Below are positions 16,490 to 19,267 of a DNA stretch of 32,775 nt, piece after piece. Source of the stretch: Candidatus Woesebacteria bacterium GW2011_GWB1_39_10 (GTDB lineage Bacteria > Patescibacteriota > Microgenomatia > UBA8517); assembly GCA_000993205.1 (NCBI GenBank), contig LBVU01000004.1, positions 91,338-124,112 on the forward strand. The letters are read 5' to 3'. The notes under the pieces are model-generated. The model searched no databases. It had not been told where the DNA came from and was given only the letters and a program-made list of their open reading frames with translations. The position numbers and the translations under genes are program-made. Each line of letters starts with the position of its first letter. Within the stretch, counting starts at the first letter, position 1.

Positions 16490-17149
16490 CTACTTTCCAC
16501 TATGGGGCTTTCCGTCTGAAGCGAACACACCATAACCGTTAGACCAGGTTGTGTACATTGAAGAATCAGGCTGAACAAAAGTGGGCATTGTTACAAAAAA
16601 CACTCCTTTTGTAATTTTATCCAAAGTGTAAGTAAATTTTCCGTCGACTGAGGTCAGAGCGGTCGTTTCTGATTGCAAATGAAAATCTGTAGAGAGTTTA
16701 CCTACAGATTTTCCGTTTCCATTCCGAAAAGTAATGGTCATTGTTCCATTTTCCACTCCAGCGTCATACCTAAATTTTCCCGAAGACTCTGATCCAAGCA
16801 GTAATTTTCTCTCAACGTCTCTACCGGTTAATTTAATTGTTCCCGGCACGCCCTGCTGACCACCGTCGCTTGTGGAATAAACTAAAAGATAGTCCATACT
16901 CACTGCTTTCGGGACATTGATCTTCTGAACTTTGAAATCAAGCCAGTGTCCATCTGACCCATTCACACTGGGGTTATTGGTGGGTATAAGAAAAACCGCC
17001 GGCCACTGAGACTGGGGAAGCTCGGGAATGATTTCTTCTTCCTGGGCCGGTGAAACGTTCCCCTTCATTGCCTTAAAAATAATAATTCCAACAATGGTCA
17101 ACACCAAAACTCCACAACCTACTAAAATTAATGGCAGATATTTTTTCAT
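16490..17149 (-). CDS. Membrane-anchored protein of unknown function
   Basis: I do not recognise this 219-residue protein. It has one N-terminal hydrophobic helix (about 5-27), a short acidic, Pro-rich linker (EEEIIPELPQSQWP) and a polar, Gly/Ser/Thr-rich remainder of about 170 residues that looks mostly beta-stranded and extracytoplasmic. The sequence LVGC near the start resembles a lipobox, but hydrophobicity continues well past the Cys, so a plain membrane anchor is more likely. It ends 169 bp before mraZ on the same strand and starts 51 bp from the left hairpin of the transposase unit. Its neighbours do not suggest a function. Confidence 0.75.
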   Translation of the reverse strand: MKKYLPLILVGCGVLVLTIVGIIIFKAMKGNVSPAQEEEIIPELPQSQWPAVFLIPTNNPSVNGSDGHWLDFKVQKINVPKAVSMDYLLVYSTSDGGQQGVPGTIKLTGRDVERKLLLGSESSGKFRYDAGVENGTMTITFRNGNGKSVGKLSTDFHLQSETTALTSVDGKFTYTLDKITKGVFFVTMPTFVQPDSSMYTTWSNGYGVFASDGKPHSGK

Positions 17150-17200: not shown

Positions 17201-17217
17201 TACACCTCGGGGGTGTA
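17201..17217. repeat. Left REP-like hairpin of the transposase unit
   Basis: TACACC-TCGGG-GGTGTA, a 6-bp stem with a 5-nt loop. An identical 17-bp copy lies at 17946-17962, on the other side of the transposase gene. Matching hairpins on both sides of a REP-associated tyrosine transposase are the expected arrangement for its target element. Confidence 0.8.
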
Positions 17218-17225
17218 CTTCCCTT

Positions 17226-17240
17226 GACACCTCGGGGTAT
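17226..17240. repeat. Partial, diverged copy of the REP-like hairpin
   Basis: ACACCTCGGGG at 17227-17237 repeats the 5' half of the hairpin at 17201-17217; the 3' arm has diverged. It lies 9 bp after the full copy, so the left side has a tandem pair, like REP doublets. Confidence 0.55.
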
Positions 17241-17264
17241 TTATCCTAAATTTAGATTACACCC

Positions 17265-17936
17265 ATGCCAAGACGATTACTACCTCTCATTGAAGGTAAT
17301 TATTATCACATTTATAACAGAGGCGTGAACAAACTCCCGATCTTTTCTGATCGAATTGATTACATTCGAATGATCAACTTAGCCAGGTATTATAAGATCG
17401 TAAATCCAGTCATAAGATTCTCTAAATTTCTCATTTTATCTTCTAATCAAAGAAAAGAGAGTTGGAACAACATGGCCAAAGAGAAATCTTTGGTAGACAT
17501 CGTTTCGTATTGCCTTATGCCTAACCATTTTCACTTCTTGCTTCTTCAAAATAAAGAAAACGGAATATCAAAATTTATGGGAGACTTTCAAAACAGTTAT
17601 GTAAGATATTACAACACAAGGCATGATAGAGTGGGACCTTTCTTTCAGGGTCAATTTAAAGCAGTTCGAGTGCAAACAGAGGAACAACTACTCCACCTTT
17701 CTAGGTATATTCATTTAAATCCTTATTCTTCTTCGATAATTAAATCAAGCGACAATCTTGAGAACTACGAATGGTCCTCATATCCCGAGTATCTAGATCG
17801 GGCAAAATTTGAGTTCTGCAAAAAAGACTCTATTTTAGTAAATTTTAAAAACATTGAAGGTTATAGCAAATTCGTTTTAGATAACGCCGAATATCAAAAA
17901 AAATTGAGTAAAATTAAACACTTAACATTAGACTGA
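17265..17936 (+). CDS. REP-associated tyrosine transposase (RAYT, IS200/Y1 family)
   Basis: This 223-residue HUH nuclease belongs to the Y1 transposase superfamily. The N-terminus RLLPLIEGNYYHIYNRGVNK is typical of RAYTs. The HUH metal site is MPNHFHFLL (His88 and His90). The catalytic Tyr is probably Tyr112 in FQNSYVRYYN, with Tyr115 as the alternative. VGPFFQGQFKA, YIHLNP and YEWSSYPEYL follow, all common in this family. Such enzymes cut and rejoin single-stranded DNA at REP hairpins and are usually single-copy genes. Here identical 17-bp hairpins flank the gene, 47 bp before the start and 9 bp after the stop. It is the only plus-strand gene between the dcw cluster and the LytR-type gene. 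The protein looks complete. Confidence 0.93.
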   Translation: MPRRLLPLIEGNYYHIYNRGVNKLPIFSDRIDYIRMINLARYYKIVNPVIRFSKFLILSSNQRKESWNNMAKEKSLVDIVSYCLMPNHFHFLLLQNKENGISKFMGDFQNSYVRYYNTRHDRVGPFFQGQFKAVRVQTEEQLLHLSRYIHLNPYSSSIIKSSDNLENYEWSSYPEYLDRAKFEFCKKDSILVNFKNIEGYSKFVLDNAEYQKKLSKIKHLTLD

Positions 17937-17945
17937 TGAATAAAG

Positions 17946-17962
17946 TACACCTCGGGGGTGTA
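17946..17962. repeat. Right REP-like hairpin of the transposase unit, possible terminator
   Basis: Identical to 17201-17217. On the plus strand it is followed by TTTTTATTT, so it could also terminate transposase transcription. It ends 3 bp from the glyS stop codon on the opposite strand, where it might act as a 3' hairpin for the glyS mRNA. Confidence 0.8.
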
Positions 17963-17965
17963 TTT

Positions 17966-19267
17966 TTATTTAAGTCTGTCTGAAAAATAACTTTGAAGCC
18001 TGTCAATATCTACCCTCTCTTGTTTGGCGGTATCACGATCGCGCACAGTCACTGTGTCGTCTTCAAGTGATTCAAAATCCACCGTAACACACCACGGAGT
18101 CCCAATTTCATCCTGAGCAAAATAACGCTTACCGATATTCCCCCGGTCATCCCATACCACGTTAAACTCTTTTTTGAGATTTTTATAGATATTTCGAGCT
18201 TTTTCGACAAGTTCCGGTTTATTTTTTAGAAGAGGAAACACGGCAGCCTTATAAGGAGCTAGACTGGGGTGCAGTTTTAGAAAAACTCTTTCTCCCTCTT
18301 CCCTATATGAATCAATCAAAAAAAATAAAGTTGCGCGGTCAACGCCGCCAGAAGTTTCAATAACCCAAGGTATATATTCTTCATTGGTCATTTCGTCGCG
18401 ATACTTCAAACCATGATTCTTTAAATCAAAATCTCCTCTATGGTGAATGCCTTCCATCTCACTCCACCCAAAAGGTGCCTTGTATTCAATGTCTGTGGCA
18501 TATTTGGCATAATGGGCTCTCTTTTCCGGTTCGTGATCATGGAAATGAAGTTTTTCAGGATCTATCCCCAAATTTTTATACCAATTAATTCTAACTTCCT
18601 TAAATTCGTCGAAGGTTTTTGCACTGGCGTCATCGTCAGGTTTTACAAAATATTCAAGCTCCATTTGTTCAAATTCCCTTGAACGGAAAGTAAGGTTTCC
18701 CGGAGTTATTTCGTTTCTAAACGCTTTACCAATTTGCCCTATCCCGAATGGTACTTTAATGCGAGTCGAATTAATGACATTTTCAAAATTAACGAATGCT
18801 CCTTGAGTTATCTCTCCTCTAAGATACGATTTTTCTTTGGGTTCCGTCGTCCCAAGTAGAACCTCTGTCATCAAATTGAAAGTCTTTGCATCCGTCCATA
18901 TGTCTTTTTCATCCGGATGAGAATTTTCGTGGTCTTTAATCGCCTCGTCGTTATCGGCGCGAACTCTCCTGTGACAAACCTTACATTCTACAAGCGGGTC
19001 TGAAAAAGCTTTAAGATGTCCCGACTTTTCCCAAACCACCGGATTCATGATTATGGCTGCGTCGATCCCCACTACGTCCTCGCGTCCGTAAACCATAGTC
19101 TTCCACCATTCTTTTTTAACGTTATTTTTTAGTTCGACCCCAAGAGGGCCATAATCCCAGAACCCCTGGTAACCGCCATAAATTTCGCTGCCTTGGAAAA
19201 TAAATCCACGACGCTTTGCGAGTGAAGTTACTTTTTCCATCACGCTAGTGTGAACATTCAAGTCCAT
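17966..19267 (-). CDS. glyS: Glycyl-tRNA synthetase (single-chain, class II)
   Basis: This enzyme charges tRNA-Gly using ATP. It is the alpha2 type found in Gram-positive bacteria, archaea and eukaryotes, not the alpha2beta2 type. The 433 residues show RRGFIFQGSEIYGGYQGFWDYGPLGVELKNN (about 19-49; Gly-recognition and class II motif 1 region), GIDAAIIMNPVVWEKSGH, the CKVCHRR zinc-like site, RGEITQGAFVNF and IGKAFRNEITP (motif 2), FDLKNH, and VIETSGGVDRATLFFL (motif 3), followed by an anticodon-binding domain with FPLLKN and DEIGTPWCVTVD. The gene lies 21 bp after tspO on the same strand, and a TATAAT box sits 6 nt before the ATG, predicting a leaderless mRNA. Confidence 0.96.
   Translation of the reverse strand: MDLNVHTSVMEKVTSLAKRRGFIFQGSEIYGGYQGFWDYGPLGVELKNNVKKEWWKTMVYGREDVVGIDAAIIMNPVVWEKSGHLKAFSDPLVECKVCHRRVRADNDEAIKDHENSHPDEKDIWTDAKTFNLMTEVLLGTTEPKEKSYLRGEITQGAFVNFENVINSTRIKVPFGIGQIGKAFRNEITPGNLTFRSREFEQMELEYFVKPDDDASAKTFDEFKEVRINWYKNLGIDPEKLHFHDHEPEKRAHYAKYATDIEYKAPFGWSEMEGIHHRGDFDLKNHGLKYRDEMTNEEYIPWVIETSGGVDRATLFFLIDSYREEGERVFLKLHPSLAPYKAAVFPLLKNKPELVEKARNIYKNLKKEFNVVWDDRGNIGKRYFAQDEIGTPWCVTVDFESLEDDTVTVRDRDTAKQERVDIDRLQSYFSDRLK

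Follow-up and report, generated by a model that had tools for sequence, protein, structure and literature searches.

A putative RAYT-like transposase gene flanked by its own hairpins in a Woesebacteria genome, and a hairpin-plus-half-site pattern among its relatives

Background

In canonical RAYT/REPtron systems, described for E. coli and Stenotrophomonas, the GTAG tetranucleotide is used by the REP enzymes for binding or for the choice of cleavage site, as outlined in PMC8266576. Two further descriptions come close to the locus considered here. TIRYT enzymes and their TIRtrons are treated by Di Nocera 2013 (PMC3733652), and TnpA-Y1 subclass 2.1 corresponds to RAYT group 1 in the classification of Quentin 2018 (PMC6006769), where the groups of Bertels 2017 are also given. 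As far as the description of subclass 2.1 by Quentin et al. goes, its genes have no REP-like sequences beside them (PMC6006769).

We analyzed a window of 32,775 nt (the whole stretch of DNA under study) from Candidatus Woesebacteria bacterium GW2011_GWB1_39_10. A preliminary description of this window had pointed to an intact RAYT transposase gene bounded by identical hairpins, which it took to represent a REP family.

Results

A transposase gene between identical hairpins

The gene (17265..17936, + strand) encodes a Y1/HUH transposase of 223 aa with the HUH residues H88 and H90, the catalytic Y148, a YIHLNP motif, and a Pfam Y1_Tnp match at 40 bits (cut-off 23), which confirms that the transposase is intact, with its HUH and Tyr residues. 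By exact-match search, TACACCTCGGGGGTGTA occurs twice in the window on the same strand (+), as a left cognate hairpin at 17201..17217 and an identical right one at 17946..17962, just as had been described; at up to three mismatches, the window holds these two places and no others, compared with a shuffle mean of 0.02. The right hairpin begins 9 bp past the transposase stop codon and ends 3 bp short of the stop codon of the right neighbor, a class II tRNA synthetase gene (17966..19267, - strand) called glyS in the preliminary description, with which these coordinates agree. The left neighbor is a conserved gene of 219 aa (16490..17149, - strand) with no Pfam match. An Rfam search of the window gave nothing at gathering score, and a PHROGs search gave no match. 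The earlier observation that GTAG is missing beside the hairpins also held, the tetranucleotide being absent from the 12 nt that lie 5' of each hairpin, on both strands; since GTGG was likewise not found in the hairpin flanks inspected, we do not file the locus as a canonical GTAG REPtron.

Between the left hairpin and the start codon, consensus matching picks out a -35-like TTGACA (17224..17229, + strand) and, 17 nt after it, a -10-like TAAATT (17247..17252, + strand). The former is overlapped by an element near 17226 (17224-17237), TTGACACCTCGGGG, in which the hairpin arm recurs after 25 nt and which contains the half-site CACCTCGGGG (17228..17237, + strand), 25 nt from the start of the hairpin arm at 17203. 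This element had been regarded as a decayed third copy of the hairpin, but with an upstream offset of 25, a register that is conserved in relatives (see below), it reads better as a half-site. No half-site is present at the downstream end of this locus. The right hairpin folds more stably than its own shuffles (z -4.7), and the isolated upstream region barely outdoes shuffled sequence (z -1.0 and -1.6). The terminator scan reports a terminator-like site at the right hairpin on the glyS strand only, and it is plausible, judging from sequence, that this hairpin is a putative terminator of both genes.

Relationships of the enzyme

Two NCBIfam models scored below their cut-offs against the 223-aa protein (P0001), namely NF047646 REP_Tyr_transpos (47.4 bits, below the curated cut-off of 80) and NF033573 for IS200/IS605 (13.3 bits, below 55), and a PDB sequence search returned one meaningless match (E 0.65). 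A structure model made from P0001 and seven relatives (mean pLDDT 66, with values under 50 at residues 1-10, 45-56, and 179-223) gave as its top Foldseek match 4er8, the E. coli RAYT-REP complex (E 4.6e-7), followed by the ISDra2 and IS608 transposases; this modeled fold supports the assignment as a RAYT-like enzyme. Aligning P0001 and its close relatives (100 sequences in all) with 10 others showed the residues H88, H90, and Y148 to be identical in 100/100 of these family members. No C-terminal HTH was detected in the transposase by Pfam at E 0.001. The closest named relative found, from a Microgenomates MAG, is 57% identical in the best segment. The protein carries the motifs NHFH, FFQ, YIHLNP, and WSSY; the Y---NP motif that PMC6006769 lists for class 2 Y1 enzymes is thus present as YIHLNP, and in its motifs the enzyme resembles subclass 2.1, or RAYT group 1.

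One alternative is an autonomous insertion sequence of the IS200/IS605 type, whose ends would be the same-strand hairpins and which would move as a whole 0.76-kb unit. Such an element would have its gene bracketed by same-strand hairpins, as seen here, and the likeness of the fold to ISDra2 and IS608 transposases also speaks for it. However, the tyrosine motif YIHLNP belongs to class 2 (Y---NP), whereas the classification of PMC6006769 gives Y---Q for IS200 enzymes. The window's genome has six Y1 genes (five besides this one), and a comparison of 106 pairs of Y1 proteins, each pair from one genome, gave a top identity of 58%; these are divergent paralogues in low copy number, as in class 2 Y1 enzymes of the RAYT type, with no close copies of the kind that the insertion sequence calls for.

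The hairpin within the host genome

Allowing up to three mismatches, TACACCTCGGGGGTGTA has four further places genome-wide, all within ORFs (two in an SNase gene, Pfam PF00565, one in a 580-aa ORF, and one in a 540-aa ORF). These are probably coding coincidences, and the hairpin is therefore confined to this gene. The preliminary description had itself named occurrence at this locus only as counting against its REP family; with the four other near-matches all in coding ORFs, a REP family in this genome is ruled out. The hairpin-plus-half-site pattern also has no match in the window's genome, where the right arm of the locus itself reads GGGTG. Each of the other five Y1 genes has a distinct palindrome-like segment of its own, common to both flanks. 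Searches with the bare 15-mer (at most one mismatch) found it in 15 of 56 relatives' genomes (control matches, 2), and because 17 of the 21 hairpin places with context checked, in this genome and in relatives, fall inside ORFs of at least 100 aa, we do not take bare 15-mer matches as proof of intergenic REPs.

A hairpin and half-site that covary across the family

Relatives of the transposase at E 1e-30 or better are found in 129 of the 233 genomes of the class, which is probably Microgenomatia. We compared flanks across a family of 101 members with scores of at least 180, a set that favors high-scoring relatives of P0001; 96 members entered the comparison of end pairs and 97 the TTGACA and register survey, the others having short or N-rich flanks, and 100 entered the alignment and tree, one member shorter than 200 aa being omitted.

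Most of the relatives examined have, for each transposase gene, a hairpin sequence particular to that gene on both sides, usually accompanied, 24-25 nt closer to the gene, by a half copy of the hairpin arm that covaries with the hairpin. Upstream, the 5' arm of the hairpin is repeated at 24 or 25 nt in 69/96 family loci, including 36/58 of those with an arm other than CACCT, and the mirror register on the reverse strand downstream is found in 55/95 loci (20/57 with arms other than CACCT); any other pair of adjacent offsets reaches 4 at most. TTGACA, with at most one mismatch, starts between -50 and -26 of the start codon in 80/97 loci. Upstream and downstream segments of the same locus match at a score of at least 12 in 87 of 96 cases, against 45 of 576 cross-locus pairs, and the matching end pairs are inverted in 46 loci, direct in 39, and ambiguous in 2. 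Elsewhere in the phylum, hairpins recur in other classes, and the register is mostly absent, appearing in 3/20 loci upstream (a count that omits one locus that is an N run) and in 4/22 downstream. Spacers show a TAG[CG]TTGA or CTATTGA-like consensus, and pairing of bases beyond the half-sites is only suggestive, lying weakly above shuffles (3.25, compared with a shuffle maximum of 3.12 in 500, over 16 distinct combinations). No literature on such a signal in Patescibacteria was found among openly licensed PMC papers, and within that search the covarying hairpin-plus-half-site signal seems to be new.

Short palindromes often occur near gene ends, and given the terminator-like match at the right hairpin, the pair might be put down to chance, or to generic terminators near convergent genes. 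We consider this extremely improbable: the pair is exact where shuffles average 0.02, the 24/25-nt register extends across loci, and the control pattern is nearly empty. Register and covariation together largely refute it.

Residence at the glyS junction

In 24/24 family junctions read, glyS and the 219-aa gene are adjacent. A Y1 gene lies between them in three (G000, G027, and G263), in the same orientation and in three genera; four of the remaining junctions hold other sequence (387-573 nt), and 17 have gaps of 2-99 nt. A search for genomes lacking the unit, proposed in the preliminary description, was productive, yielding one per genus (G001, with 41 nt; G264, with another insert; and G011, with 7 nt). 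The Y1 genes of the three junctions form one clade (support 0.958), and their protein identities (60/57/76%) lie slightly above those of the neighbor gene (52/48/71%). Taken together, the shared site, the clade, and the neighbor-like divergence suggest either that the gene took up residence once, long ago, and was then lost repeatedly, or that the locus was transferred; separate insertions at the junction are less likely, and mostly vertical inheritance of the gene is the best reading of these comparisons. The ends of the G027 locus are identical over 39 nt yet unlike those of its orthologues, as expected if ends are homogenized or jointly selected, and those of G263 match less well (score 12).

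The short gaps at the site in the congener G001 and in most other junctions read again favor an autonomous insertion sequence. A site and orientation common to three genera, genes that form one clade, divergence about equal to that of the neighbor gene, and inverted end pairs in 46 of 87 loci all argue against it, and we regard it as unlikely. The transposon end pair that the preliminary description held in reserve fits less well, given the best same-genome pair of 58% and the shared site in three genera.

The junction is variable in other ways. Differing inserts occupy it in several genomes, and in G007 (L125, C5:20002-20664) the 219-aa gene has a Y1 gene on its far side, one gene away from where it stands in the window. 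What appears to be a relic of the glyS 3' end precedes the neighbor gene in G003 (L133) and G029 (L124). Between G000 and G001, glyS is strongly different (59%) and the neighbor gene little different (82%).

Dispersed units in related genomes

Two sister genomes, G054 and G188, whose enzymes are 51-53% identical to that of the window, contain CACCTCCGAGGTG in 12 and 30 exact copies, respectively; at contig ends, a few of these may have been counted twice. Many copies are whole units of half-site, hairpin, and half-site. The loci examined yielded 31 distinct full units with the exact pattern, 26 of them from these two genomes of one genus; every one has equal spacers, 12/12 or 11/11, and each of five exact whole units that were folded formed a single long hairpin (z -4.3 to -7.6). 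Copies in G054 and G188 lie outside ORFs of at least 120 aa in 31 of 35 cases, compared with 1443 of 4000 random positions. The spacers are largely genome-specific, being the same beside the transposase and elsewhere, including an orthologous site (L298:6497 / L311:1625); L300:2588 is mixed, and there is also a second unit family. Given these dispersed copies, REP-like behavior is real for the clade, although this host does not show it.

The search across the class for hairpin plus half-site was positive in 62/233 genomes, with 380 strand-wise matches (each full unit being counted twice) against 2 for the control. The enzyme was found in 54/62 unit-bearing genomes and in 75/171 without units (odds ratio 8.6, p 1e-9, by a Fisher test that ignores kinship of genomes). 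Based on these genome counts, the apparent tie between enzyme and units is correlative; eight of the 62 unit-bearing genomes have no detected transposase, and 75 transposase-bearing genomes have no such units.

These units also bear on the possibility that the transposase has been domesticated, with the hairpins serving just as operator and terminator for autoregulation and with no DNA mobility. The half-site that overlaps the -35-like box here and in many relatives, the stable fold of the right hairpin between two gene ends, and the lack of dispersed copies in this genome are all in keeping with domestication. Yet units of this architecture are numerous between genes in sister genomes, and upstream and downstream ends match each other but vary between loci, leading us to judge it improbable.

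At the orthologous place mentioned above, G188 (L311:1625-2911) has two units around ~1.2 kb of extra DNA, in which an HD-domain-like frame was recognized by eye, and G054 (L298:6497) has one unit. A 29.4-kb contig of G188 (C60; L313/L314) has a 125-nt overlap between its ends, covering part of a repeat unit among other sequence, and is either a circle or a repeat-bounded assembly end.

Doublets in coding genes and palindromes in distant relatives

A 39-nt doublet (hairpin, 11 nt, hairpin) occupies in-frame positions in variable loops of topA (identified by Pfam; L034, L021, L347, L348, L349). G009 has it at two sites (L034 and L021, identical over the 39 nt), G012 (L347) and G032 (L348) at one each, and G021 (L349) in decayed form. 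Of 30 aligned topA loci, the remaining 27 do not show it; among these, G031, G017, and G259 have other inserts. Its exact palindrome is absent from the eight Y1 loci of G009 that were examined, out of nine. Similar doublets were noted in other coding genes (L037 in G012, MgsA/RarA-like by Pfam; L013 in G045; L036 in G032; L038 in G021). In Gelidibacter (Bacteroidota), the relatives L170, L171, and L173 are flanked by palindromes like CCTCACAGGTTT-n3-AAACCTGTGAGG, the core of which occurs seven and eight times in the two genomes searched.

Discussion

In our assessment, this gene quite probably encodes a RAYT-like single-strand-DNA nuclease with its own recognition palindromes. The enzyme would bind the hairpin in single-stranded DNA, with the half-site or spacer serving as a guide in place of GTAG, and would copy or move small units rather than itself. 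Its binding could also control transcription of its own gene, given that half-site and -35 box overlap, and transcripts could stop at the right hairpin. The palindromes of this host would either never have spread or have been lost.

Beyond this locus, we tentatively propose, at somewhat less than even chances, a RAYT-like branch in Patescibacteria (probably in Microgenomatia) in which hairpin plus GTAG is replaced by a two-part signal, a hairpin with half-sites at a distance of about one helical turn. Enzyme and signal would co-diversify gene by gene (six pairs in a 1.08-Mb genome), the signal would double as promoter and seed REP families in some hosts, and a related 39-nt doublet would have been inserted in frame in topA and other housekeeping genes. 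With about a hundred enzyme-signal pairs whose sites covary, one could test how Y1 substrates are chosen without GTAG and why repeats become dispersed in some hosts but not in others. Small palindromic repeat families, moreover, occur in reduced genomes of ~1 Mb.

Among known systems, IS200/IS605 elements (IS608, ISDra2) share with this locus the HUH-Y1 fold and hairpins near both ends, but the protein here is longer and has the class-2 YxxxNP motif, no near-identical copies were seen, and one gene only lies between the hairpins. Canonical RAYT/REPtron systems, as portrayed in PMC8266576, have the same fold and a gene flanked by cognate palindromes; their dispersed repeats have a counterpart in the related genomes G054 and G188 only, the window's host being without dispersed palindromes, and in place of GTAG there are covarying half-sites 11-12 nt from the hairpin. 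Subclass 2.1 and TIRYT enzymes are similar in that the protein is a class-2 Y1 enzyme with the NH[YF]H, FQ, Y[IV]HLNP, and SS motifs and, at 223 aa, is near the subclass 2.1 median of 238 aa, going by the motifs and lengths given in PMC6006769. As in the TIRYT description (PMC3733652), terminal repeats are gene-specific, paralogues are divergent, and some terminal repeats are dispersed in moderate number and some self-complementary. The mixture of inverted and direct end pairs in the family (46 and 39 of 87, with 2 ambiguous) is a point of difference. What sets this locus apart from both TIRYT and subclass 2.1 is a hairpin combined with a half-site in fixed register that overlaps a promoter-like box.
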